DNA from: Sphingomonas sp. LC-1
Lineage (GTDB): Bacteria; Pseudomonadota; Alphaproteobacteria; Sphingomonadales; Sphingomonadaceae
Length of the DNA stretch: 64,000 nucleotides
Direction of reading: 5' to 3'
Assembly (NCBI RefSeq): GCF_025371035.1
Contig: NZ_JANZXB010000001.1
Span: 1-64,000 of the forward strand
The notes beneath the pieces are model-generated. The model worked only from the letters and a program-made list of their open reading frames with translations, was not told the DNA's origin and did no database searches. The position numbers were made by a program, and so were the translations under genes. Positions 50,005 to 64,000 of this stretch are shown piece by piece; position 1 is the first letter of the stretch; the number at the start of each line of letters is the position of its first letter.

Positions 50005-51480
50005 CTATGCCGATGAAAGCCAGCCGCCCGTAAACCCGGCACGCGTAAGCCCGGCGCGGATATAGGAATTCTTCTGCATCGTCTTCCAGATCAGCCCGCT
50101 GCGCCAGTTTTCGATCATGCACGCGATCGGTCCCTGGTCGATGCCGAGATAGTCATCCGCGACCCAACCGATATAGGGCACGACCTTGCCGTGTTGCAGC
50201 TTGACGTCTCTCAGCGTCATCGTGGGATTGAAGCTATCGCGAAAGCCGTATCGGTCGTAGATCGCGGTGCCATAGGTGGAATACATCGCACGCGCCGCAG
50301 GCAGCACGATTTCCGGCGCGAACGCCACCGAACCGAGCGCGGCGGTGGGTGCAATCGTCCCGTCGTCGCGGTCGCCGGGGCCGCGTCCCGAATAGGAAAA
50401 GAACTCCCGGTTCCGGCCGTCGATCTTCCGGACGAAATCTCCCGGCCCGTCGCACGCGGTGAGTCCCCAGACATTCTCGCCATAGCCGCGCCAGCCCGCC
50501 GGATTGTTGATCGCATAGCGGCGCTGCGCATAGGTCGCCCGGCGGCTATTCTCGAAATAATCGAACCCGCGCCGCTTGGAATAGCTATCCATCAGACCAC
50601 GAAAATCGAGCCACACCTGGCTGTACTGATGCCCGAACAGGGGCGGGAAAGCCGTGAACGGATTGTCGTATTTCTCGTCCCAGGACGGGTCGAATGTGGC
50701 GGTCCACTCGTCCCATGTCGTGGGCGGCAGTGCATGCGTCGGCGAGCCGAGCGCCAGGACGTACAGGATCAGACTTTCGTTATAGATATTCCAGTCCGAA
50801 CCGATGAACCCGCTTTCGGGATGCCAGCCCATCGAGACGAACGGCTTGCGCGGCGTGATCCAGTCCCATTCGACCGCACGGTAGAGTTGGTCGGCCAGCG
50901 CTCGGATTTCCCGCTCCGCAGGGTCGGTCTCGTCGTCGAACCATGTCTGCGCGAAAAGGACGCCGCCCAGCAGCAGCGCGGTGTCGATCGTCGACAACTC
51001 GGTCCTGGCGAAGCGATGCCCCTTGGTGACGCCCAGGAAATGGTAGAAAAAGCCCTTATAGCCGCTCGTGCCGTCCTTCGCCGGGCCTTGCGGCGCATTC
51101 GCGAAGAAGCGCAGTGTCGCCAAAGTGCGTTGCGCGGCGGCGGCCCGCGTGATCCAGCCACGCGCCGCCGCGATCGGATACGTCGTAAGCGCAAAGCCGA
51201 CCGCGGCGATCGATGCGAAACTCGGCGTCGGCCACCGATCGGGCGCGAGCCCCGTGACCTGATCGGTGGTATTCCAGAAATAGCTGACGGTGCGCTGCTG
51301 AATGTCGTCCATCAACGGGTCGCTGGCACTTGCCGGGGTGGTGCCCACCTTCGGCAGCACGCCAGGAAACGCCATTGGCGGCGCTCGTTTGGGCGCAAGC
51401 GGCCCGGCGGTACACCCCGCCAGCCACCCCGCCCCGCCAAGCGCGGCGGCGCGCACGATATCGCGTCGGTCGAACGTCAT
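50005..51480 (-). CDS. GH144-type glucoamylase-like lipoprotein (probable endo-beta-1,2-glucanase)
   Basis: This 491-residue exported enzyme has a twin-arginine-like and lipobox N-terminus (DRRDIVR, GWLAGC). The rest is an (alpha/alpha)6-barrel of the glycoamylase family: QQRTVSYFW, MGWHPESGFIGSDWNIYNESLILYVLALGSP, NVWGLTACDGP and YIGWVADDYLGIDQGPI. This family includes the GH144 endo-beta-1,2-glucanases that cut linear beta-1,2-glucan into sophoro-oligosaccharides. It is the last gene of the island, 91 bp downstream of a TonB receptor gene. Confidence 0.82.
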   Translation of the reverse strand: MTFDRRDIVRAAALGGAGWLAGCTAGPLAPKRAPPMAFPGVLPKVGTTPASASDPLMDDIQQRTVSYFWNTTDQVTGLAPDRWPTPSFASIAAVGFALTTYPIAAARGWITRAAAAQRTLATLRFFANAPQGPAKDGTSGYKGFFYHFLGVTKGHRFARTELSTIDTALLLGGVLFAQTWFDDETDPAEREIRALADQLYRAVEWDWITPRKPFVSMGWHPESGFIGSDWNIYNESLILYVLALGSPTHALPPTTWDEWTATFDPSWDEKYDNPFTAFPPLFGHQYSQVWLDFRGLMDSYSKRRGFDYFENSRRATYAQRRYAINNPAGWRGYGENVWGLTACDGPGDFVRKIDGRNREFFSYSGRGPGDRDDGTIAPTAALGSVAFAPEIVLPAARAMYSTYGTAIYDRYGFRDSFNPTMTLRDVKLQHGKVVPYIGWVADDYLGIDQGPIACMIENWRSGLIWKTMQKNSYIRAGLTRAGFTGGWLSSA

Positions 51481-51571: not shown

Positions 51572-54500
51572 TCAGAAGTTGAAGCCGGCCGACAGCTTCA
51601 CCGTGCGCGGCGGATTGCCGCCGATGCTGTAGGTCGACACTTCACGGTAGATGCTCGGCGAGCCCGACGTGCGCGTCGTATCGCTGGGGTCGTTGTTATA
51701 GTCGACATAGTTCCGGTCGTTCATCGCGTTGATGATGTCGACGCGGAAGCGGATGCGCGTCGCATCGCTGATGAACTTCAGCGGCACATATTTGGTGAAT
51801 GCCAGGTCGAGCTGGCGACGGCCCCAGCGATCGCCCAGCCCGAACACTTCCGAGCCGACCAGCGTCCGCTGATACGGCGTCGACGTATCGAGCAGGGCGC
51901 GCTGGAAGGTCGGGCTCTCGATCTGGAACTTCGCGGACATCGTCACGCCCAGCGGCGTGTCCACGCTGCCCGCGACCACGAAGCGGTGACGCGGGACCAC
52001 GCCCGAACGCAGCATCGGATAATCCGAGGCCTTGGGGAAATCGAGCAGGAAGTAGGACGACTGGTCGTTGTTCGGCCGGTTATCGACCGCCGCCGTGAAG
52101 GTATAGGTGGCGTCGATGCTCCACGGCGAGGCCGCAGAATAGGCCTTGGTCAGCTTGGCATAGGCCGAGTCCGCGCGCGTCTCGAGCCCGTTGTCGCCCA
52201 GGATGATCGCGCCATAACCCGAAGGCGCGAAGCTGGTGTTCGGCCCCTGCGGCGCGCCCGTGGTCGGTGACGGCGCGAAGAACGACCCGTCGGGGCGACG
52301 CGTACCGAGCAGATAGACGAACCCGTCCTTGCTGACGATCCGGGTATAGCCGACTTCCAACTCGACCGGGTTGAACCGCCCGCGTACCCCCAGGCTGAAC
52401 TGGTCCGAATAAGGAACCTTGAGGTCGTTCTTGATGAAGCGGAACTCGCGCCCGCCAGGACCGCCATTGCCGATCAGCTGCTGACGGCCCGCATCGGTCA
52501 GATAGATCGGATTCCAGGGAATGCAGTTCGGTCCGGGCGTGCACGGATTGATCGTGTCGGCGCCCTGGAAAAGGAACTCGCGACGCTGGAAACGGCCATT
52601 GGCCAGTTCCTGCTGCAGGAAGTCGAACTGGTTGCGATCGTACGACCGGCCATAGCCGCCGAACACCGCGAACCGGCCCTGTTCGTCCAGGCGATAGGTG
52701 AAGCCGACGCGCGGCTGCCACGCCCCCTTGAACGCCTTCCGATTGCTGCCGGTCGAGATATAGTCGCCGATCTTGTAGTCGGCATTCACAAGGTTTGGAT
52801 AGTTTGCGGGCGACACCGCGTTGACGTTCTCGGCGGAAGTTACATAGTTCAGGAACGCCGGGGTCCGCTCATAATCCCAGCGCAGGCCGAGGTTCAGCGT
52901 CAGCCGATCGGTCACGTCCCAGTCGTCCTGCGCATACAGGCCGAGCTGGAAGTTCTTCGAACGGATGCGCGGATCGCCCAGGCTGCCATTCGCGCCGAAT
53001 TGCAGGCTGTACGGGATCTGGTCGTTGAAACCGCTCGCCGACGGCAAGGTGGTGTCATAGAGATAGAGCGGGTTGATCAGGTTCTGCTCGAGCGAGTTGA
53101 GCGTCACCCATTTCGCCTTCGCGCCGACCTTGAACGTGTGGTTCTCGACGCCGGTCCAGGTGAAATCGTCCTGGACGGTCCAGCCCTTCTGCCCCTTGTC
53201 CTGGAACCCAAGCCCGGCGCCGGTGCGGAACAGGTCGAAGGTCGACACGCTGTTGCCGTTACGGGTGGTGGTCCGGAACTGCTGCCCGATGCCGTTCTCG
53301 GCGGGCTGCGGCGACCAGGCGACATCCTCATAGGAGACGCGCACGTCGTTGATCCACTTGTCATCGGTATGCTGCCAGCGCAGCATGCCCCGCTTCTCGT
53401 TGACCTTGCTCAACGTGCGGGTCGAGAAGGCGGCATTGCCGTTGCCGATCTGCACGCCGGTCTCGTTGCGGTACTTGCCGGTGAGCTCGATCAAGTCCTT
53501 GTCGGTCGGCTCGAGGTCGATCTTGCCGAAATACAGGTCCTGGCGGAAGCTCGAGTTGTACGACCCGAAGATGTCGCGATACTGCGCGGGCAGGCTGGAC
53601 ACCGCCACGCCGTTGGTCGGCAGGATGTCGATCGGGACCTGCCGCCGCTTGCCCTCGTAGCTGACGAAGAAATGCGCGACGTCCTTGACGATCGGTCCGC
53701 CCAGCGCGACGCCGAACTGCTTGTCTTCCGAGGGGATCTTGGTGATCTTGGTGGGGAAGATCTCGGTCGGGCGACGGTCGCGAAGATTCTGGTTGGTGAA
53801 GTCGAAAAAGCCTTCACCGTGGAATTCGTTGGTACCCGACTTCGTGCCCGCGATGATCGCGACCGAGCTGACCTGGTCCAGCTCCGCCTTGTAGTTCGAC
53901 GACAGCACCTGATATTCGCCGATCGCGAGCTGCGGGAACGGGTTGCCCGGCGAGCTGTCCTGCCCGGTCAGGCCGCCGCGCAGCACGTAATCCTTCTGGC
54001 TGACGCCATCGATAAAGACGTTGACGGAATTCGACCCCTGCGCGCCGCCCTGGATGCGCGAGCTGCCGTCCGAGCTTTCGATGAAGCGGACGCCGGGCGC
54101 GAGATCGGCAAAGGCCAGGAAGTTGCGGCTGTTCTGCGGCAACTGCTCGATCAGCCTGGGGGTGATGTTGACCCCAACCTGCCCGCCGGACAGCGAGCGG
54201 ATGCGGCTGCCGGTGACGATGATGTCGCCGGCCTGCGCTTCGGCCGGGGGCGGCGTGGTCTCGCCTGCGGTGTTGTCGCCGGGCGCGGGTTGCGCGGGTG
54301 CCGGGCGGTGGTCAGGTCGAGGTCGAGCCCGGCATTCTGCCCGACCCGCAGCGTGAACTCGTCCGAATTGCGCGTGCCCTTCTGAAGGCGGATTTCCAGC
54401 CGATATGCACCGGCCCGCAGCGACGGGAAATTATAGCTGCCGTCCGCGCCGGGCACGACGGTACGACGAAAGCCGGTGTCGACCTCGACCAGGGTCACAT

Positions 54501-54654
54501 CCTGCAAGGGGTTGTCGGGCGCGGTACGGATCACGCCGCGCAGCGCCGCCTGCCCGGCCTGCGCCGATGCAGGCGCGCTCCACATCGCCCCGGCGCCCAG
54601 CCCCGCCAGCATCGTCGCCCCGGCAAGTGCCAGCCTGAATGCGTTCCTTTTCAT
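51572..54654 (-). pseudogene. Oar-like TonB-dependent receptor split by a one-base frameshift
   Basis: From ATG 54654 the frame gives a signal (ending APASAQA) and a carboxypeptidase-regulatory-like domain (GVIRTAPDNPLQDVTLVEVDTG) up to LDLDLTT, then runs into nonsense near 54304 (ARHPRNPRP). The next frame restores sense: APAQPAPGDNTAGE, AGDIIVTGSRIRSLSGG, then plug (NVFIDGVSQKDYVLRGG) and barrel to KLSAGFNF at 51572. One extra C in a GCCC run near 54304 would restore a single protein of about 1,027 residues. It lies four bases downstream of lacI on the same strand. Decay or sequencing error cannot be told apart here. Confidence 0.82.
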
Positions 54655-54658
54655 AATC

Positions 54659-55723
54659 CTATCCCCTGTCTGCTTCTCTTGTTGTTTCACGCACCATCAG
54701 ATGCGGGACGATCACCTCGTCCGCTTCGGTCGTTGCGTCTTCCGAAGATCCTTCGCGGAAACCTTCGATCTGCCTTGCCAGCCGGGCCACCGCGCGGGCG
54801 CCCATCGCCGCGATATCGACCGCGACGCTGGTCAGCGCCGGGCTCACCAACCTAGCCAGCGGAATGTCGTCGAAACCGGCGACCGCGACCTGCCCCGGCA
54901 CCGCGACGCCGTGGCGCTTCAACGCCGTCAGCGCGCCGATCGCCATCATGTCGTTGGCCGCGAAGATCGCATCCGCCTCCAGCGTCCCCGCCCCGACGCG
55001 CTCGCCGACCGCAACGCCGCTCGCCTCCAGGAAATCGCCCTCGATCACACTGAGCGCGACGCCCGCTGCGGCGGCGGCGTCCTGCGCGCCCGCACAGCGC
55101 TCCTGCGCGTCGAGATTGCCCAGGGGGCCGGAGATGTGGACGATCCGCTTCGCCCCGCCCGCCGCCAGATGCGCGACCGCCGCAGCGGCCCCGGCGCGAT
55201 TGTCGATACGCAGGTTCGGACTGCCCTTCTGCGGCACGCAGGCGAGAAACACAGCGGCCAGCCCGCGCGGCATATTCTGTGCAAGCACATCGGGATCGAG
55301 TTCGGGCGCCATCACCAGCAGCCCGTCGACCTGCCCCCGCAGCGCTGCCAGCGTATCGAGCCCGCGCCCGTCATGGAGCACGGTCAGCAACAGCCCCAAT
55401 CGACGCATGCTCGCCTCCCTGTCCATGCCTCTTAGCAATTCGGAGAAGAACTCGCCGTGCAGATCGGGCAGCACCACCCCGATCGCCCCGGTCCGCGCCA
55501 TGCTGAGACTGCGCGCACCGGCATGGGGGACATAGCCGAGCTGCGCCGCCGCCTCCTCGACCCGGGCCCGCATTTCGGCGCGCACATGATCCCGCCCGTT
55601 GAACACACGCGACACCGATGCGACGGAGACACCCGCCACCCGCGCGACGTCGTGGATCGTCGCATGCGCACCCCGCGCCGCCGGGGCGGCAACGGGCGCA
55701 GAATCGGGTTTGTCGGGCAACAT
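54659..55723 (-). CDS. LacI-family transcriptional repressor
   Basis: This 354-residue sugar-responsive repressor has a short Pro/Ala leader, HTH TIHDVARVAGVSVASVSRVFNG, hinge ARSLSMARTGAIGVV, then a periplasmic-binding-protein-like effector domain (GFDDIPLARLVSPALTSV). It is in one transcription unit with the Oar-like receptor (4-bp gap) and divergent from the GH3 gene. Palindromic operators upstream of its start fit autoregulation and control of GH3. Confidence 0.9.
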   Translation of the reverse strand: MLPDKPDSAPVAAPAARGAHATIHDVARVAGVSVASVSRVFNGRDHVRAEMRARVEEAAAQLGYVPHAGARSLSMARTGAIGVVLPDLHGEFFSELLRGMDREASMRRLGLLLTVLHDGRGLDTLAALRGQVDGLLVMAPELDPDVLAQNMPRGLAAVFLACVPQKGSPNLRIDNRAGAAAAVAHLAAGGAKRIVHISGPLGNLDAQERCAGAQDAAAAAGVALSVIEGDFLEASGVAVGERVGAGTLEADAIFAANDMMAIGALTALKRHGVAVPGQVAVAGFDDIPLARLVSPALTSVAVDIAAMGARAVARLARQIEGFREGSSEDATTEADEVIVPHLMVRETTREADRG

Positions 55724-55756: not shown

Positions 55757-55783
55757 TGTAACCGCTTACAGAAACCGCTTACA
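55757..55783. promoter_or_regulatory. LacI operators between lacI and the GH3 gene
   Basis: TGTAACCGCTTACA (55757-55770) is a palindrome of the LacI-family type TGTAA-N4-TTACA. A second, weaker copy with AACCGCTTACA follows at 55773-55783. The pair sits 33 bases before the lacI start codon in the divergent control region. Confidence 0.75.
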
Positions 55784-55969
55784 TGAACTAGGAATGACAA
55801 TCAATCGGTCGATTGTTCGGCTGGGCGCCATTCCGATCGGCGGCTGGAAAGTGATCCAACGCCCTGTTCTTGCTGACCGCATCGATCGCGGTGGAGACAG
55901 GGCAGAAAGTCGGATCGCCTTCCCGGTCACGACGTGAATGACGTATAAATGAGAACGAAAGGGAGCAGG

Positions 55970-58225
55970 ATGAACGGTCAGGATCGACGGATATCGCGGC
56001 GTGCATTGCTAGCAGGAGCTGGTGCGGCACTGGCATGGTCGGCTAGTCCGGCACGGGCTCTGCTCGCCATCGTCGGCGAACGCCCACTTCCTGCGGCGGT
56101 CGAGGCGCTGATCTCCCGAATGACGCTCGTCGAGAAGGCCGGGCAACTCAATCTCCTCGCAGCCGCCTGGGCCGGGGGCGCGGCGATTTCGCTCAACCCG
56201 GCGGGCGCGGCGTCGAGCTTCGATGCGCAGTTGCGCATGGTCCGTCGGGGCGAGCTGACCGGCGTGTTCAACGGCAATGGCGCGGAGATGGCGCGGCGAA
56301 TGCAGACCGAGGCGGTGCGCCGTTCGCGGCTTAAAATTCCGCTGCTATTTGCCGCCGACGTCATCCACGGCCTGCGCACCGTCTTCCCGGTGCCGCTTGC
56401 CGAAGCGGCGAGCTTTGATCCCGATCTGGCGCGTCGGACCGCTCGTGCCGCAGCGGTCGAGGCGTCGGCCTCGGGGATCGACTGGACCTTTGCGCCGATG
56501 GTCGACATCGCCCGCGATGCGCGCTGGGGCCGAGGCGTCGAGGGATCGGGGGAGGATGTGCTGCTCGGTCGGTTGATGGCCGCAGCGCGCGTCGAGGGTT
56601 TTCAGGGCAGCGGCCTTGCCGCGCCGGATGCCGTTGCGGCCTGTGCCAAGCATTTCGTCGCCTATGGCGCGGGCGAGTCCGGGCTTGATTACAACAGCGT
56701 CGACGTATCGGAACGTACGCTGCGCGACGTCTATTTCCCGCCCTTCCAGGCGGCCTTCGCGGCGGGTGCGCCGACCGTGATGGCATCGTTCAACGATCTG
56801 TCGGGGGTGCCCGCGACGGCGAACCCGTGGCTACTCGACACGATCCTGCGCAAGGAGTGGGGCTTTGGTGGGCTGGTCGTCTCCGATTATACGGGTGACG
56901 AGGAACTGATCGCACATGGCTTCGCCAAGGATGGCCGTGATGCCGCGCGCCTTGCCTTCCTCGCGGGCGTCGACATGTCGATGCAAAGCGGGCTGTATCT
57001 CCAACACCTCCCCGATCTGGTCGAGAAAGGCGAGGTGCCAATGGCACGGCTCGACCAGGCGGTGCGTCGCGTGCTTGCGCTCAAGGTCGCGCTCGGGCTG
57101 TTCGACGATCCCTTCCGCCGCATCGATCCGGCGCGCGAGAAAGCCCGGCTGCGCACCCCCGAGACGCTGGCGCTTGCGCGCGAGGCGGGCGGGCGCAGCA
57201 TCGTCATGCTTCGCAACGAAGGCGACGTGCTCCCCCTGCCCCGCTCGGGAAAGAAGATCGCGCTGATCGGGCCGTTCGCGGGCGGCGGCCATGATCTGAT
57301 CGGGCCATGGAATGTCTATGGCACCGATCGCGAGGCGGTGGACCTCGTCACCGCGGTGCGTGAGACCGTTCCCGGCGCGACCATGGACGATGGCAGCGAT
57401 TTGGCGCGCGCGGTCGCCGCAGCGCGTGCCGCCGACATCGTCGTGCTGGCGATCGGCGAAACGCAGAACATGTCGGGCGAGGCGCAGTCGCGTACCGAGA
57501 TCGTCGTGCCCGCCGAGCAACAGGCACTGGCCGAGGCGATCGCCGCGACCGGGAAACCCTATGTCGTGCTGTTGCGCACCGGGCGGGCGCTCGCGCTGAC
57601 CGGTGCGGTGGCGAAGGCACCCGCCTTGTTGGTGACGTGGTTCCTGGGCTCGCAGGACGGCCCGGCCATCGCCGACATCCTGTTCGGCGCGGTTTCCCCC
57701 TCCGCGCGGCTGCCGGTATCCTTCCCCCGCGCCAGTGGGCAGGTGCCCTATTATTATGCGCATCGCAGCACCGGCCGCCCCAACCCGCCTGGAGCGCTAC
57801 AGCCCTATAAGGCGCACTTTCGCGACTATCCGAACAGTGCTTTGTTCGCGTTCGGTCACGGCCTGACCTACGGCAAGATGGACTATTCGGACCTTCGGCT
57901 GAGCACTGCCACGCTGGGCGACACGCCGCTGACGATCCGCGCGACCATCGCCAATACGGGCCGCATGACGGCGACGGAAGTCGTCCAGCTCTATGTCCAC
58001 GATGTCGTCGCCAGCGTGACCCAACCGGTGCGTGTGCTGAAAGCGTTCACCCGCGTCACCCTTGCCCCGGGGGCGCGGCAGGATGTGACCTTCACCCTCA
58101 CCCGCGCCGACCTGTCCTTTATCGGCCGCGACCTGACGCCGACGACCGAACCCGGCACTTTCTGCTTATGGGTCGCACCATCCGCCGAAGCCGAAGGGCT
58201 GGCGGGCACATTCACGCTGACGTGA
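55970..58225 (+). CDS. GH3 beta-glucosidase (BglX type)
   Basis: This 751-residue exported enzyme has an RR-containing signal (ISRRALLAGAG, cleavage near ARA). The GH3 N domain has KHFVAYG and catalytic nucleophile D306 in GLVVSDYTGD. The C domain and a fibronectin-III-like end are present (NTGRMTATEVVQLYVHD). It releases glucose from the ends of beta-gluco-oligosaccharides in the periplasm. Start 55970 follows GGGAG. An in-frame ATG at 55949 has no ribosome site. Divergent from lacI across the operators. Confidence 0.93.
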   Translation: MNGQDRRISRRALLAGAGAALAWSASPARALLAIVGERPLPAAVEALISRMTLVEKAGQLNLLAAAWAGGAAISLNPAGAASSFDAQLRMVRRGELTGVFNGNGAEMARRMQTEAVRRSRLKIPLLFAADVIHGLRTVFPVPLAEAASFDPDLARRTARAAAVEASASGIDWTFAPMVDIARDARWGRGVEGSGEDVLLGRLMAAARVEGFQGSGLAAPDAVAACAKHFVAYGAGESGLDYNSVDVSERTLRDVYFPPFQAAFAAGAPTVMASFNDLSGVPATANPWLLDTILRKEWGFGGLVVSDYTGDEELIAHGFAKDGRDAARLAFLAGVDMSMQSGLYLQHLPDLVEKGEVPMARLDQAVRRVLALKVALGLFDDPFRRIDPAREKARLRTPETLALAREAGGRSIVMLRNEGDVLPLPRSGKKIALIGPFAGGGHDLIGPWNVYGTDREAVDLVTAVRETVPGATMDDGSDLARAVAAARAADIVVLAIGETQNMSGEAQSRTEIVVPAEQQALAEAIAATGKPYVVLLRTGRALALTGAVAKAPALLVTWFLGSQDGPAIADILFGAVSPSARLPVSFPRASGQVPYYYAHRSTGRPNPPGALQPYKAHFRDYPNSALFAFGHGLTYGKMDYSDLRLSTATLGDTPLTIRATIANTGRMTATEVVQLYVHDVVASVTQPVRVLKAFTRVTLAPGARQDVTFTLTRADLSFIGRDLTPTTEPGTFCLWVAPSAEAEGLAGTFTLT

Positions 58226-58242: not shown

Positions 58243-59775
58243 TCAGAGGGCTGTGTTCGCCGGCTCCGTCCTGACGTCCGCCCGGACCGGCGCGGCACAA
58301 TAGTCCTTGATGAACGCCAGATGGTCCGGAATCTGCTGCAATTGCCGCGAAAGCTGTTGGTCGAGGCCGTAGAAGGAATCCTGCAAGGCGGGCGGACCGA
58401 TCATTCCCGGAATGCGGTGATGGGCCTTGGGAACAAGTCCCTGCCCCAGCATGACCGAAACCCACGAATCGATCTTGAACAGATCATCCTGCCCCTGCCA
58501 GGCCCCCGCGCTTTCGACGAACAGTGCAATGCGTTGCGCGAGCGCCTCGGGCACGTTCATCGTTGAACGGCGTTGCCAGAATGCCGAGTCCGTCCGCCCG
58601 GTCTGCGCGTAGTGCAGGATGATGAAGTCTCGGATATGCTCCCATTCGTGACGCGACTGGGCGTTGAACCGTGTCCGCAGCGCCGCGCTGTCCTGTCCCT
58701 GAAACGGAAAGCCTTGGATCAGGCGCATAACCGCGATCATGACCAGATGGATGCTGGTCGACTCCAGCGGCTCGATAAACCCGGCGGCAAGTCCAAGCGC
58801 CACGCAATTGCGGCTCCAGGCCTGCCGACGCATTCCGGCGCGGAATTGCAGAGCACGCGGCTCGAATAGCGGCGCGCCCTCTATCCCGGCGAGTAGCGTG
58901 GCGGTCGCCTCGTCCTCGCTCATGTCGGCCGAGGAATAGACCAGCCCGTTGCCCACCCGCGTCTGAAGCGGGATGCACCAGCGCCAGCCCGCCCGGTGCG
59001 CGATGGCGCGGGTATAGGGAACCGGCGCAGAGACGGCTTCGGTCTGAACCGCCAACGCGCGGTCGCAGGCCAGCCATTCGCTCCAGTCCTCGAAGCCCGT
59101 CTCCAGCGCACCCTCGACCAGCAGCGCACGAAAGCCGGTGCAATCGAGGAAGAGGTCCCCCTCCACACGGTCGCCCGATACCAGATGCAGCGCGGCGATG
59201 TCGCCGCCCTCGCCATGACGCTCGATGCTGGCGATACGGCCCTCGACCCGGCGCACCCCCGCCGGTTCGGCGACGCCGCGCAGGAAGCGGGCATAGGCCG
59301 TCGCGTCGAGATGATAGGCATAGGCCAGGGTCCCTGCCTCGTCCCGTCCAAACCGGCTCGCCTCCGCTGCCCGCGCCTCGAGCGAATAGTCGGTATACGC
59401 ACCGCCGAACCCGTGACGCTTGGCCTCCAACCAGAAATGCTGGAAATCGGCGATCGCCACCGACCGACCGACCGTTCCGAACGGATGGAAATAGCGCGCG
59501 CCGTCCGGTCCCCAATTCTCGAACGCGATGCCGAGCTTGAAGGTCGCCTGGGTCGCTTTCATGAATTCGGCTTCGTCGATGCCGAGAAAGGCATGGAAGC
59601 TGCGCGCCGTCGGGATGGTGGACTCGCCGACGCCGACCGTGCCGATCTCGTCCGATTCGACGAGCGTGACGTCGACCAGCGGTCCCAACTGCCGAACCAG
59701 CGCCGTTGCCGCGAGCCACCCGGCCGTCCCACCCCCGGCAATGACGACACGGGTCGGCGGATAGGGCACGCTCAT
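58243..59775 (-). CDS. Flavin-dependent tryptophan-halogenase family protein
   Basis: This 510-residue FAD enzyme of the PrnA-like family has the FAD site VIAGGGTAGW (10-20), proposed chloramine lysine K80 in TFKLGI (PrnA K79), motif GWRWCIP (W264/W266, the halogenase WxWxIP) and the substrate/halide loop GFIEPLESTSIH. All key residues are kept, so halogenase chemistry is plausible, but the real substrate need not be tryptophan. It overlaps the JmjC gene by four bases, in a receptor-SapC-JmjC-halogenase operon. Confidence 0.88.
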   Translation of the reverse strand: MSVPYPPTRVVIAGGGTAGWLAATALVRQLGPLVDVTLVESDEIGTVGVGESTIPTARSFHAFLGIDEAEFMKATQATFKLGIAFENWGPDGARYFHPFGTVGRSVAIADFQHFWLEAKRHGFGGAYTDYSLEARAAEASRFGRDEAGTLAYAYHLDATAYARFLRGVAEPAGVRRVEGRIASIERHGEGGDIAALHLVSGDRVEGDLFLDCTGFRALLVEGALETGFEDWSEWLACDRALAVQTEAVSAPVPYTRAIAHRAGWRWCIPLQTRVGNGLVYSSADMSEDEATATLLAGIEGAPLFEPRALQFRAGMRRQAWSRNCVALGLAAGFIEPLESTSIHLVMIAVMRLIQGFPFQGQDSAALRTRFNAQSRHEWEHIRDFIILHYAQTGRTDSAFWQRRSTMNVPEALAQRIALFVESAGAWQGQDDLFKIDSWVSVMLGQGLVPKAHHRIPGMIGPPALQDSFYGLDQQLSRQLQQIPDHLAFIKDYCAAPVRADVRTEPANTAL

Positions 59776-60809
59776 CGGTTCAGCCTTTGCAGGAGATAGG
59801 CACGAAGCCGCCGCGCCATGGCCTCGTCGAGCGGCGCGAGCGGGCCGTGCGACGCCGGCGGCAAATGGGCGGTGACCGCGTCGCTCTCGCCGAAGATATA
59901 ATGGTCGAAGATCGCCCGCCAGGCCTGTTTCTCCGCCGCCGGGCGGTCGCGCAGCGACAGCATGGCATGCATCACACTATCCATCGGCGTGTCGAGATAG
60001 TCCGGCGCGGCGTTCCACCAATAATTGACGAGGATGTTGAACGCTTCCAGCGCCTCGACATGGTGCCACCACAGCGCCGGATAGATCAGCAGGTCACCGG
60101 GCTCGAGGTCGGCCACCACGGCCTGGCCCATGGCATCGGCAAATCGGGGATAGCGGTCGAGATCGGGCCGGGCGAAGTCGACCATGCTGACCACCTGCCC
60201 GCCCGGCGTCGGGGCAAGCGGACCGGGATAGAGATTGCCGATCTGGTTGGGCGGAAACAGCGTGAAACGACGTCGACCAACGGCGCAGATCGCCGCATTG
60301 TTCGCCATGTCGTAATGCGCCGAGGCGATGGTCCGGTTGCCGATCCAGATACTGGCCAGTGGCGGGTGTCGGTCGAACAGCCCGTCGGAGAGAACCAGAT
60401 CATTCTCGACGCGAAAGCCCGGCAGATAGGCGTCGAGATCGGTCGAACCCATGTAGAGCGCGGGCATATCCTCCGACCCGTCGCCTCCATCCAGCAGCCG
60501 CGCCATGAAGTCGCGCAGGGACAGAGTCTGTGTCTGGAAATTCAGTCCCGTGACGCTTTCGTCATAGTGAAAACGTCCGCGTATCGCCGCGTCACCCACA
60601 TAGCCGGTCACCGGTCGCCCACGGTCGAAGCGCAGGAGATAGTCGGCTGCCGCACGGGAGGAAACCCGCCCTGCCTGGACCAGCGGCCAATGCGCCGCAT
60701 AGCCTCGCAGGATGACCGGTTCGTTGCCTTCGACGAGCGAAGCCAGGTCGGGCGCCCCCGTTTCCGCCAGTTCACGGGCATGACGCCCAGTGGGCAGCTG
60801 GTCAGCCAT
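59772..60809 (-). CDS. JmjC-type cupin-like protein
   Basis: This 345-residue soluble protein has the cupin_8/JmjC fold. The iron-site residues are H and D in SAHYDMANN and the distal H in YPALWWHHVEAL. The oxoglutarate side is likely near FTLFPPNQIGNLYPG. It could hydroxylate a protein or small molecule. The N-terminus has EPVILRGYAAHWP, usual in this family. It overlaps SapC by eight bases and the halogenase by four, so the three are translated together. Confidence 0.85.
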   Translation of the reverse strand: MADQLPTGRHARELAETGAPDLASLVEGNEPVILRGYAAHWPLVQAGRVSSRAAADYLLRFDRGRPVTGYVGDAAIRGRFHYDESVTGLNFQTQTLSLRDFMARLLDGGDGSEDMPALYMGSTDLDAYLPGFRVENDLVLSDGLFDRHPPLASIWIGNRTIASAHYDMANNAAICAVGRRRFTLFPPNQIGNLYPGPLAPTPGGQVVSMVDFARPDLDRYPRFADAMGQAVVADLEPGDLLIYPALWWHHVEALEAFNILVNYWWNAAPDYLDTPMDSVMHAMLSLRDRPAAEKQAWRAIFDHYIFGESDAVTAHLPPASHGPLAPLDEAMARRLRAYLLQRLNR

Positions 60810-61506
60810 GGGGGTCCAGGCTCAGCTTGCGGTCGATCAGATGGCGAAGATTGCCCAGCGAGGAGGCGATCCAGAATGCCGGTCGCAGATAGTCCCGCGC
60901 ATGGAGATCGCCCAGGGCCCCGGCCTCCAGTGCCGCCAGCCGCGCGGTGTCGATCGTCAGGCAATCCGGCACATTGTACCGCCGCCCCTCGTCCAGATCG
61001 AGTTGCAGGACGGCGGGCGTCAGTAGATCGAGCGCGGCCCAACTCTCGTACATGGCCTGCTCGGTCTGCACGCCTGCATAAATGCGTTGCAGCATGACCG
61101 AGACATGATCGAGCAGCGGCGCGTTGCCGCCATGCTCGCGAAACACGGGAATGCCTTCGGTGGACAGTCGCGGATGCTCGGGATCGATGAAGACCATGGG
61201 CTCCCCGGTCGGGTCGTGGCCGATCGAAAACGGCCCGCGCGAACGGGTTGCCGGAACGTAGCGGGCCTCCCAGCGATCGCCCTTCAGGAACAGGTTTTCG
61301 TCCGGGTCGAGGCCGAGGAGAACGGTAGCGTAAAGCGCTCCACCTTCGTCGCGCCGCAACACGATGGCGTATTCGCGCTGAAGCTCCTCGAACTCGGTTG
61401 GAAACACCCGCGTCTGGTTGATGGCATCGCCGAAGCGGGCGTGATGACCGATCGCGACACGAAGGTCGCGATGGTCGACATTGTTGAGCAGTACAGGTGC
61501 GGCCAT
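60802..61506 (-). CDS. SapC family protein
   Basis: This 234-residue soluble protein of the SapC family contains FPTEFEELQREYAIVLRRDE, GPFSIGH and a metal-free beta-rich core. SapC is repeatedly encoded beside TonB receptors and tryptophan-halogenase-like genes in Alphaproteobacteria and Xanthomonas, but its role is not settled. It begins 59 bp after the stop of a TonB receptor gene and overlaps the JmjC gene. Confidence 0.85.
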   Translation of the reverse strand: MAAPVLLNNVDHRDLRVAIGHHARFGDAINQTRVFPTEFEELQREYAIVLRRDEGGALYATVLLGLDPDENLFLKGDRWEARYVPATRSRGPFSIGHDPTGEPMVFIDPEHPRLSTEGIPVFREHGGNAPLLDHVSVMLQRIYAGVQTEQAMYESWAALDLLTPAVLQLDLDEGRRYNVPDCLTIDTARLAALEAGALGDLHARDYLRPAFWIASSLGNLRHLIDRKLSLDPHG

Positions 61507-61565
61507 GATCGCCCCATGTACCCGGAAGACCGCAGGGGGGACAGCGGCCTTCCGAGTTTCAGAAA

Positions 61566-64000
61566 TCAGAAGCGATAGCGTGCGCCGACCAGATAGCGGG
61601 CGGAACCTTCGGCAAGATACCAGGTGTTCATGCGATCGCGGCCATAGGTCTGGACACCCTCCTCGGTCAGGTTGATCGCCTCGAAGCCGAGCGCGAAGCG
61701 TGGCGTCAGGTCGAAGCTCATCGACACGTCGAACTGGCCATAGGGCGCGGTGAAGACCGGATTGCGATCGCCGCCGCGGTTAATATCGCTCAGGAACTTG
61801 TCGCGCCAATTGTATGACAGGCGGACCGAAATGCCGCTCTTGTCATAGATCAGCGTGGCATTGGCGGTGTCCGACAGGCCGACCAGCGCAAAGGTGTTCA
61901 CGCTGGGATCGGCCGCGATGTCGATGCCGATATTGCCGCGAACCAGCGTATAGCTGGCCGCGACGCCGAAGCCCGTCTCGCCCAGGAAATACTGCCCTGC
62001 CAGCTCGACGCCATAGATATGCGCGTCGCGGTTATTGATCGGCGTGTTCACCGCAAAGTTGAACAGCGGATCGCTGGCATTCGGACTGATGTCGACCTGG
62101 CTGAGGATCGAGTCGACGAAGCCCTGGTTCAGGGCACGGCTCTGCGTGTTGTAATTGGCCGCGAACTGCGCGTTCGCCGCCGCAACATTGCCGTTATTCT
62201 GCTGAAGCAGCGCGGTATAGGTGAACAGATTGACGTCGGTGATGTCGGCGCCGAACGTGTTGGTCAGTTGCTCGCGCGCTGTGCCCGACCGCGTGCCGGC
62301 CTGACCCGATGTGGCGTCGCGCAGGCCGAACAGGTTGCGGTTCACAACGGTGTTGCCGATGAAGTTGTGCACCCGCTTGTCGAAGAAGCCCGCCGACAGG
62401 AAGACGTCCTTGCGCGGATACCATTCGACCGACAGGTCGATATTGTCCGACGACAGCGGCAAGAGGCCGGTATTGTTGGACGAGCCCGTCGCGATGCCAC
62501 CGATCGCGGTCGGCCGCCCGGGCGCACCGACGCCGGTCGAGGCGAACAGGTTGCCGTAAGGGGCACGCGAGATCGTCTTGCTGTACGAGGCGCGGGCGAA
62601 CAGATTGTCCAGCACCTCGATCTTGGCGTCCACCGCTGGCAACCAGTTGCTATAGGATCCGCGCGCGGAGATCGCCTGCTGATCGGTGCTGTTCTGGACG
62701 ACGAAGTCGTTGTCCGCCGTCCACACGATCGCCAGCGGCACGGGTTGCAGCGACACCGCTCGCACCTTGGTATTCTCGTAACGCAGGCCGGCGACGATCT
62801 GCACGTTGCGGCCGAAAACTTGCCCGTTCCAGCTGCCCTGGAGGTATCCGGACCAGATATTCTCGCGCACCGAATTGTCGCTGTTCGCATCGATATTGTT
62901 GCGGTGATCGACGCCGTCGTTCGTCACGCCGGAATAATAGTCGAACAGCGTGTTGTAGAGCTTGGTCGCATCCTCCGTGCGGAAGGCGATTTGCGTGTTC
63001 GGATCGGCGTTCGGATTGTTATGCTCGAACTTGCAGGTGTTGCAGAACTGGAAGACCTGCCCCGGTGCCAGCCGCGCGATGTCGGGCGGCAGCGAGTTGC
63101 CCCAGTCGCCCAGCACCTGACGCGTGTTGAACTGGGTCTGGCGGGTGGTGGTGGTGCGGTAATCGGCGCCCGCGTCAAAGCGAATCTGGTCGGTGACTTC
63201 CCAGGCGGCATCGGCGCGCAGCTCGCGGATCCGCTGCGTCTGGTTCGAAGCGAATTGGCGCTGCACCGCGCTCGCCAGATCGCCGACGTCCAGTATACCG
63301 TTGTTGTTGCCCTTGATGAAGGACTGGCCGGTCGGGGTCGTGCTTTGCGTACCATCGTTGATCGTCAGCGTCTGCTGAGGGAAGCCCTTATCGGTCCAGC
63401 GCAGCGTATGCCCGGTGACGACCGGCGCGTTGATCGCGACGGTGGTCGAGGTTTGGCCATTGGGATTGTCGGGCAGGCTCTGCGCCTCGCCGATATGACC
63501 GTCGATCGACAGGGTGAAGCGGTCGCTCGGCTTCCATTCGATATTGCCGCCGACATCATACAGCCTGTTCTTCTGCGCGCGATAGGCCTGTTCGAAGGCC
63601 GCATCCTTCACGCCGTTGATCGTCTCGGCCAGGAATTGGGTGGTGGCAATGCCGTTGCTGGCATCGTCGAACGTCACCTCGCTGAACGGCCGGTTGAACC
63701 AGTTGGACTGGCTCGAGCGTCGCTCGGACTGGCGCAACTGGGCATAGAGACCATCGGCGGTGAAGGTCAGCGTGTCAGTCGGGCGGAATTGCAGGATCGC
63801 CTGGCCGTTGATCCGCTCGCGGCTGGCCTCGGAGAAGTGATAGCGGAAGTCGTTGGGCACCGAAACCAGCGGGTTGCCCGTCGGACGGTTGTTGATCTTG
63901 GTCGCGCCGTTCACGAAGCCGTTGGACGGGTTCAGGAAATCGTTGAGCGAGCGAATATTCCAATTGTCGGGCGCAACGCTCGCAAAGCTGAAATTGCGTT
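61566..64000 (-). CDS. TonB-dependent receptor (partial, N-terminus beyond window)
   Basis: This covers the last 811 codons of an outer-membrane receptor. The visible part is beta-barrel with alternating aromatic strands (YENTKVRAVSLQ, FARASYSKTISRAPYGNLF, SVEWYPRKDVFLSAGFF, FGVAASYTLVRGN) ending LVGARYRF. The pattern matches the sphingomonad/xanthomonad receptors that head SapC-JmjC-halogenase operons. The plug and signal are outside the window. Confidence 0.9.
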   Translation of the reverse strand, partial: RNFSFASVAPDNWNIRSLNDFLNPSNGFVNGATKINNRPTGNPLVSVPNDFRYHFSEASRERINGQAILQFRPTDTLTFTADGLYAQLRQSERRSSQSNWFNRPFSEVTFDDASNGIATTQFLAETINGVKDAAFEQAYRAQKNRLYDVGGNIEWKPSDRFTLSIDGHIGEAQSLPDNPNGQTSTTVAINAPVVTGHTLRWTDKGFPQQTLTINDGTQSTTPTGQSFIKGNNNGILDVGDLASAVQRQFASNQTQRIRELRADAAWEVTDQIRFDAGADYRTTTTRQTQFNTRQVLGDWGNSLPPDIARLAPGQVFQFCNTCKFEHNNPNADPNTQIAFRTEDATKLYNTLFDYYSGVTNDGVDHRNNIDANSDNSVRENIWSGYLQGSWNGQVFGRNVQIVAGLRYENTKVRAVSLQPVPLAIVWTADNDFVVQNSTDQQAISARGSYSNWLPAVDAKIEVLDNLFARASYSKTISRAPYGNLFASTGVGAPGRPTAIGGIATGSSNNTGLLPLSSDNIDLSVEWYPRKDVFLSAGFFDKRVHNFIGNTVVNRNLFGLRDATSGQAGTRSGTAREQLTNTFGADITDVNLFTYTALLQQNNGNVAAANAQFAANYNTQSRALNQGFVDSILSQVDISPNASDPLFNFAVNTPINNRDAHIYGVELAGQYFLGETGFGVAASYTLVRGNIGIDIAADPSVNTFALVGLSDTANATLIYDKSGISVRLSYNWRDKFLSDINRGGDRNPVFTAPYGQFDVSMSFDLTPRFALGFEAINLTEEGVQTYGRDRMNTWYLAEGSARYLVGARYRF

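Follow-up and report, generated by a model that had tools for sequence, protein, structure and literature searches.

In the window, the 64,000-nucleotide stretch of Sphingomonas sp. LC-1 DNA that we analyzed, a flavin-dependent halogenase gene closes an operon that is opened by a TonB-dependent receptor gene, with genes for a SapC family protein and a Cupin_8/JmjC protein in between. Why would a receptor be made together with a halogenase and a putative hydroxylase, and what would these enzymes act on?

A conserved four-gene operon

All four genes are on the minus strand. The first encodes a TonB-dependent receptor of the TIGR01782 type, of which the window holds the 3' part (61566-64000; TonB barrel 73 bits, Pfam). 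The window edge cuts the gene, and its full frame (C1:61566-64817, 1083 aa) scored 608.5 bits against TIGR01782 (cut-off 310) and has a hydrophobic, signal-peptide-like N-terminus. It is followed by the SapC family protein (60802-61506, 234 aa), the Cupin_8/JmjC Fe(II)-2OG hydroxylase-like protein (59772-60809, 345 aa) and the halogenase (PF04820; 58243-59775, 510 aa; Trp_halogenase profile 599.5 bits, Pfam). The coordinates agree with the tight spacing described in the initial annotation, i.e. a 59-bp gap between receptor and SapC and overlaps of 8 bp (SapC/cupin) and 4 bp (cupin/halogenase). SapC, cupin and halogenase probably stay in the cytoplasm, since by a crude hydropathy measure a strongly hydrophobic N-terminal stretch is absent from all three. 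Across the loci that we compared, the successive gaps had medians of 100, -4 and -4 bp, and the largest receptor-SapC gap was 275 bp. A RiPP-type cluster with a precursor peptide inside the operon was ruled out because the cassette genes overlap or nearly do so, a test that covered the gaps within the operon only. No flavin reductase gene was found among the four cassette genes with Pfam profiles; the Flavin_Reduct profile, the one reductase family searched for genome-wide, gave a single match, on contig C48.

The genome-neighborhood comparison called for in the initial annotation showed none of the random variation in neighbors that would speak against a functional unit. The order receptor-SapC-cupin-halogenase was found on one strand in 70 of 80 GTDB loci from Alpha- and Gammaproteobacteria, a set that favors this type of cassette because only the top 80 were taken from the 591 matches to the window's cupin that had been confirmed. 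Profiles detected SapC and the cupin in all 80 loci, the receptor in 79, the halogenase in 75, a LacI regulator in 24 and a GH3 enzyme in 22, and when neighbors were clustered nothing beyond the four cassette genes and LacI (22 loci) formed a cluster of more than 8 loci. In the genome of LC-1 and 60 relatives all 45 SapC-cupin pairs were on the same strand with SapC upstream, as counted from 98 of 100 SapC rows (two 22-bit fragments left out) and 72 of 97 cupin rows (25 rows below 106 bits left out). In a 200-genome sample of the phylum, searched with Pfam profiles and judged by eye, SapC was directly upstream of 11 of the 21 cupins scoring above 180 bits, and the other 10 did not adjoin SapC.

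The unit is not invariant. Cupin or halogenase is absent from some cassette loci, in one locus (L080) no receptor frame was found beside the other three genes, and another (L203) has receptor and cupin without an adjacent SapC. On a plasmid of Sphingomonas parapaucimobilis the four-gene set adjoins type VI secretion genes, and in the 25 kb covered, where annotation is incomplete, neither a glycoside hydrolase nor LacI is annotated. Matches to the halogenase, cupin and SapC families were also obtained in Caulobacter vibrioides, which served as a control. Taken together, the conservation of the arrangement excludes chance as its origin and shows that the cassette is a real unit, as had been proposed; because the four genes are kept together in this way, the objection of randomly varying neighbors fails. 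We found no mention of the set among the best-ranked literature matches and in term searches of selected papers, which does not imply that it is unpublished.

The halogenase, the cupin and SapC

The halogenase residues reported as intact (K80, WRWCIP and GGGTAG) were all found in the sequence, with GGGTAGW at residue 14, WRWCIP at 264 and, in addition, EPLEST at 335. Profile match, FAD motif, WxWxIP and the catalytic Lys and Glu place the protein among the flavin-dependent halogenases, and K80 and E335 were kept in every one of the 86 terminal halogenases that we measured in cassettes (90 loci, 4 of them outside the length filter). The best match in the PDB was 6y1w, which we take to be Xcc4156, with 551 bits over the full length as compared to 421 bits for 6frl (BrvH). 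These two structures are 46% identical, in agreement with the 45.5% published for Xcc4156 and BrvH. Among the matches listed, 12 of 12 for 6y1w were halogenases of SapC cassettes and 10 of 12 for BrvH belonged to halogenase arrays without SapC. The genome of LC-1 encodes nine halogenases of this kind, eight of them beside TonB receptors. In Xanthomonas and Shewanella, GlcNAc loci reportedly include halogenase and SapC genes. There is also a distant sequence similarity to QhpG and LodB, which act as maturases of residues within proteins, but the scores of 32.7 bits (QhpG, cut-off 240) and 23.3 bits (LodB, cut-off 400) are too low for membership in either group.

Xcc4156 and BrvH belong to the same family as the window's halogenase, with Lys/Glu and WxWxIP kept, but the published passages on them make no mention of a receptor, SapC or cupin partner (PMC5945002, PMC7336383). 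The initial annotation held that similar halogenases are known beside TonB receptors in Brevundimonas and Xanthomonas; we could not trace this to the main text of either paper, where the word TonB does not occur. According to the same passages both structures are solved and the native substrates unknown, free tryptophan is halogenated by neither enzyme, and free indole is accepted by both, with low activity in the case of BrvH. For BrvH an open active site was reported and taken to suggest that its substrates are larger molecules or peptides; the Xcc4156 study carries the peptide idea further (PMC5945002, PMC7336383).

A 238.2-bit Pfam match together with an HxD...H triad places the cupin among the Cupin_8/JmjC 2OG hydroxylases, and the iron triad (H165, D167 and H249) was kept in all 141 cupins with a length of 310-400 aa. 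Its best PDB matches were the protein hydroxylases FIH and JMJD5, with which it has the Cupin_8 domain and the triad in common; unlike these, the cassette protein is a bacterial, receptor-linked and so far predicted hydroxylase. SapC matched PF07277 with 195.2 bits (Pfam, cut-off 28.9). The family is named after a Campylobacter surface-layer gene, whereas here it is tied to a sugar-type receptor, and a profile search gave no credible relative in the PDB (best E 0.49). SapC also occurs as a stand-alone gene, mostly behind a FAD-linked oxidase. That neighbor prompted the idea that SapC may be a flavin partner; the persistence of SapC in cassettes that have no halogenase speaks against it. We also looked at 20 distant SapC regions, which were hand-picked from the phylum-sample rows, mostly high-scoring and away from cupins, and thus not random. 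Five of them had HlyD-type export genes, in 3 cases together with a protein of more than 1700 aa, whereas in the other 15 a single weak match was the only sign of such an export gene. Profiles found no receptor or cupin in the 20 regions, and one halogenase-like frame.

Predicted sugar-type regulation and the glucan locus next door

The initial annotation placed the operon next to a glucan-degradation locus. Such a locus does exist in the window, with a convergent GH3 gene (55949-58225, plus strand), a LacI regulator (54659-55723, minus strand) and a PF10091 gene (50005-51480) identified with Pfam, but we judge its GH3 gene to be outside the cassette. A LacI-type operator pattern gave 3 predicted sites in 4.15 Mb (0 for the reversed-pattern control), two of which were upstream of the receptor and at a second GH3 gene beyond it (C1:64956-67364), outside the window. 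One predicted site lies at C1:64907-64922. The window's own glucan locus has no such site, and the palindrome TGTAACCGCTTACA at 55757-55770, before the window's LacI, differs from the cassette operator pattern. Because the predicted operator is common to the receptor and the outside GH3, the cassette is putatively tied to this gene and to a second LacI, likewise beyond the receptor (C1:67534-68544). The earlier interpretation is supported as to the conserved unit, and not supported as to its membership in the window's glucan locus.

At other loci different glycoside hydrolases adjoin the cassette, or none is annotated. The TIGR01782 receptor, LacI, GH3 and the common operator-like site are reminiscent of TonB-receptor carbohydrate utilization loci; the difference is the addition of SapC, cupin and halogenase, words for which a term search of that work gave no occurrence (PMC1790865).

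Receptor or ligand as the substrate

The persistence of the whole cassette across distantly related bacteria suggests that the three accessory proteins have as their target either the receptor or the ligand that it imports. Our tentative preference is for a sugar-controlled cassette dedicated to oxidative modification of the receptor, which would take place before export. In the presence of the sugar the LacI repressor would leave, and all four genes would be made together. The accessory proteins would then act in the cytoplasm on the receptor precursor while it is still unfolded and has yet to be exported by Sec: SapC may hold or present the precursor, the cupin would hydroxylate one or more of its residues and the halogenase would halogenate an aromatic one, which might change how the mature receptor binds its ligand, how durable it is or how far it is exposed. 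Two observations make us lean to the receptor rather than the ligand: it is the partner that stays constant, and the gaps are too small to hold a precursor peptide gene. Besides the conserved unit, this reading is favored by the protein hydroxylases among the cupin's PDB matches, the larger or peptide-type substrates suggested for BrvH and Xcc4156, the SapC cassettes behind the listed 6y1w matches and the five SapC regions with export genes. Against it count the cassettes that lack a member, the 10 cupins away from SapC, the stand-alone SapC genes and the distant SapC regions in which profiles found no receptor or cupin.

Receptors linked to SapC group in a single clade (45 of 74 rows; FastTree local support 99) that spans co-directional and divergent gene-order types. 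The underlying tree carries a long-branch warning; it samples 21 of the 106 receptors of type A and omits all 12 U0 rows. Receptor residues were compared among 106 type-A, 13 B, 10 C, 7 D, 12 H and 11 unlinked receptors, group D including L167, a neighboring receptor of another kind, and L209, whose cassette was misread into this group because its SapC frame is overlong. Nine of the 106 type-A receptors come from loci without any halogenase, and no Trp, Tyr or His column that was at least 90% conserved in the other 97 type-A receptors differed in at least 40% of these nine. No Trp was diagnostic of a link to a halogenase either: of the 10 type-C receptors that have the enzyme, 5 carry Arg in place of W1004. 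As modification sites W373, W1004, R149 and D439 were rejected, being clade markers, present in unlinked receptors or missing in linked ones. The two sister loci L116 and L117, both without a cupin, have A106, H326 and F754 in common, which represents one event and was not used. In a mirror-tree analysis the cupin was the strongest divergence partner of the receptor in 162 of 200 subsamples, a result that is confounded by shared ancestry. A correlation of receptor residues 555-625 with the cupin (partial r 0.59) was set aside because the sign of the blocks follows their variability, with variable blocks tending positive and slow ones negative, so that distance saturation explains it equally well.

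Alternatively, the receptor could import an aromatic glycoconjugate or phenolic glycoside from which GH3 frees the aglycone, to be oxidized in the cytoplasm by halogenase and cupin. The operator-like site common to receptor and GH3 is consistent with this route, as are LacI in 24 and GH3 in 22 of the 80 loci, the free indole taken by both solved relatives in the published passages, and the conserved receptor aromatics that are not lost in halogenase-less loci. However, the adjoining hydrolases vary or are not annotated, all further neighbor clusters stay at or below 8 of 80 loci, the indole activity of BrvH is low in those passages, and halogenation would be an odd catabolic step; we regard this route as rather unlikely. 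An improbable alternative is that the roles are split, with SapC as export or assembly partner of the receptor, and cupin and halogenase as sensors of oxygen, halide or redox state or directed at another target. Within the SapC-linked receptor clade SapC does persist in halogenase-less and cupin-less loci, and it recurs in some export loci, but the enzyme residues are kept, the gene order is tight, and in the 162 of 200 subsamples the cupin tracks the receptor more closely than SapC does. We consider it quite improbable that the cassette converts a metabolite of the host, e.g. an indole, into a small halogenated compound that serves as a signal or antimicrobial and is recaptured by the receptor. 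The kept halogenase residues and the indoles halogenated by the solved relatives, as described in the published passages, agree with such a function, but no scaffold-building gene is conserved with the cassette, the sugar-type regulator fits poorly, and the genome has nine such halogenases, eight of them next to TonB receptors.

Modification of the receptor before export can be extended to a more general and doubtful proposal: Proteobacteria may hydroxylate and halogenate residues of a sugar-receptor clade before export, with SapC as substrate adaptor, and this may be what orphan halogenases of the Xcc4156 type do natively. The conserved place beside a receptor, a relative of protein hydroxylases and SapC narrows the native-substrate candidates for halogenases of the Xcc4156/BrvH kind. 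If the receptor is the substrate, a large group of environmental bacteria would modify outer-membrane transporters post-translationally by halogenation, and halogenation of the receptor before export, if true, would be to our knowledge the first dedicated system for halogenating a membrane transporter.

Conservation of the receptor–SapC–cupin–halogenase cassette

All four genes of the cassette were found where the initial annotation had placed them, on the minus strand of the window, and profile matches to Trp_halogenase (58243-59775), Cupin_8 (59772-60809), SapC (60802-61506) and a TonB receptor bore out the families it had named. The receptor frame, which the window edge cuts, spans C1:61566-64817 in full (1083 aa; C1 being the contig that holds the window). 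Beyond the window edge, the region upstream of it contains a second GH3 gene, whose longest frame is C1:64956-67364, and a LacI regulator in divergent orientation (C1:67534-68544). Another complete set is present at C1:215-222 kb in divergent form, with halogenase and receptor on one strand and SapC and cupin on the opposite one.

The genome of Sphingomonas sp. LC-1 holds nine PF04820 halogenases, three SapC, two Cupin_8 and 17 TIGR01782 receptors over cut-off. Seven of the nine halogenases have a TIGR01782 receptor no more than 5 kb away, where random placement would predict about 6%, although three of the seven belong to one array and the independent loci are therefore fewer. The eighth adjoins a TonB receptor of another kind, and around the ninth, on contig C2, the receptor profile gave no match in 19.5 kb.

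When this genome and 60 relatives were searched, 45 of 98 SapC matches had one of the 72 cupin matches no more than 3 kb away, and SapC was upstream of the cupin on the same strand in all 45 close pairs. Four recurring arrangements were read from 88 regions of own and related genomes: receptor-SapC-cupin-halogenase, sometimes with an extra halogenase following the receptor or lacking the final halogenase (type A); SapC-cupin divergent from receptor-halogenase (type B); receptor, halogenase and SapC without cupin (type C); and receptor, several halogenases and cupin without SapC (type D).

A search with the cupin alignment confirmed 591 loci, and the distant set comprised the best 80 of these, under names such as Sphingomonas, Caulobacter, Asticcacaulis, Hyphomonas, Microbulbifer, Gilvimarinus, Pseudoxanthomonas, Stenotrophomonas, Povalibacter and Pseudoduganella. 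The full order on one strand was present in 70 of these best 80. In loci L152, L154, L160 and L166 the gene after receptor-SapC-cupin is not a halogenase (L160 has one elsewhere), and in L156 and the betaproteobacterial L208 a halogenase sits between receptor and SapC, the last halogenase being present as well in L208. L168 is truncated where its contig ends, L202 is fragmented into separate frames, in L209 the SapC frame is too long, and L203 is without adjacent SapC. By profile search each cassette family was found in 75-80 of the best 80 loci, LacI in 24 and GH3 in 22, and clustering of all their neighbours gave no additional cluster of more than eight loci. Pfam profiles applied to a phylum sample of 200 genomes gave 21 cupins above 180 bits; read by eye, 11 of these had SapC directly upstream and 10 did not. 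FastTree, run on 74 rows, placed the SapC-linked receptors in a single clade of 45 rows with local support 99. Taken together, these four genes make up a genuine unit that is widely conserved and tied to one receptor clade.

Sugar genes and predicted operators

The region upstream of the receptor holds a sequence conserved in close relatives. With at most one mismatch, the pattern TTGACAYCGRTGTCRG occurs three times in the 4.15 Mb genome, where the reversed-pattern control gave zero matches. One predicted LacI operator, an exact match, lies 90 bp before the receptor frame; another (C1:67349-67364, one mismatch) overlaps the 5'-terminal part of the longest frame of GH3, next to LacI, and GH3 itself probably starts further on; the third is at C44:249401-249416. 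Inside the window the core of the pattern has a single chance-level match, far off, and the LacI encoded there has a different perfect palindrome between itself and its GH3. The exact core is found in only 15 of 243 loci; it precedes both GH3 and receptor in L133, L136, L139 and L169, and L066 and L075 carry two copies between LacI and receptor. These patterns suggest that LacI, GH3 and the cassette may form a sugar regulon in this species group, and the cassette is probably under sugar control.

All four genes (cupin 85%, SapC 91% identical) are retained on a plasmid of Sphingomonas parapaucimobilis (NZ_CP155750.1), as is an operator-like sequence before the receptor. Sulfur/arsenic-type genes lie on one side and a type VI secretion cluster on the other, with no glycoside hydrolase or LacI in the incomplete annotation of a 25-kb stretch. 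In Sphingobium RAC03, genes for GH16, LacI, MFS, GH3 and GH43 come after the cassette. From these two contexts, the hydrolases vary and the four cassette genes are constant.

In the glucan locus of the window, the outer-membrane receptor at 51572-54690 (minus strand), which we take to be Oar-type, is split into a CarboxypepD_reg part and a barrel part in separate frames meeting near 54142-54151, by either a frameshift or a sequencing error.

Enzymes and SapC contexts

The halogenase aligned nearly full-length to 6y1w (taken as Xcc4156), 9luq and 6frl (BrvH). All 12 matches listed for 6y1w were cassette halogenases (best 65% identity), and 10 of the 12 listed for BrvH lie in SapC-less loci. From 90 loci, 86 terminal cassette halogenases were measured, and all 86 carry the catalytic residues K80 and E335; K80 is present in 168 of 182 halogenases of all kinds, and the cupin iron triad was intact in 141 of 141. 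By a crude measure, N-terminal hydrophobicity was 1.4 for the halogenase, 0.75 for the cupin and 0.5 for SapC, as compared to 2.0 for the receptor.

Among 17 SapC-less loci with at least two halogenase frames (470-620 aa counted), 14 have one halogenase without the catalytic lysine, replaced by Arg in 11 and Ala in 3 (L017, L095, L096, L098, L099, L101, L102, L103, L105, L108, L109, L112, L113, L115; none listed for L100, L104 and L114). Possibly, this is a non-catalytic partner subunit. The LC-1 example among these SapC-less arrays is at C47:132937-134265. Flavin_Reduct (PF01613) has only one match in this genome (C48:53700-54158), and with nine halogenases a shared reductase is possible.

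Stand-alone SapC directly follows an FAD-linked oxidase (PF01565/PF02913) in 26 of 29 short SapC loci, and one of the remaining three (L050) is a cassette. This is a second conserved SapC context, again with a flavoenzyme. In LC-1 such a pair is found at C7:38843-41660 (L009/L016), and cytochrome b561 often comes next. Twenty SapC regions were picked from distant genomes. Five of them contain export genes of the HlyD or M50-HlyD type, in three cases together with a protein above 1700 aa, and one further region adjoins a 972-aa DUF4214 protein; the remaining regions had no such export or surface-protein context, and the receptor and cupin profiles matched in none of the 20. Distant SapC near HlyD, M50-HlyD or outer-membrane export genes, giant or DUF4214 proteins was seen in L246, L250, L251, L253, L254, L118 and L263. 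Judged from these neighbourhoods, a SapC that handles exported surface proteins would fit.

The receptor as candidate substrate

The sole other constant product of the cassette is the receptor. Its distances track those of the cupin most closely (partial r 0.53, conditioned on the other two genes), and with column numbers equalised the cupin was the strongest receptor partner in 162 of 200 subsamples (mean 0.45), a correlation whose reading is limited by shared descent. For BrvH, its authors report that the active site is open and propose that the substrates are larger molecules or peptides; the Xcc4156 authors take the peptide proposal further. According to PMC9775415, peptides and tagged proteins can be modified at a C-terminal tryptophan by some tryptophan halogenases, and better so by engineered ones.

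Against the receptor as substrate, its conserved aromatic residues are retained in nine type-A loci without halogenase, and no single Trp distinguishes the linked receptors. That a ligand is modified instead is the main rival and seems somewhat less likely to us. Modification of the receptor before export is the best explanation, although we hold it tentatively. What was observed are the gene families, their order and conservation, the operator-like sites and the intact catalytic residues; the cassette enzymes would act on the receptor ahead of its export, with a protein location, a SapC role, a chemistry and a target that are all predicted.
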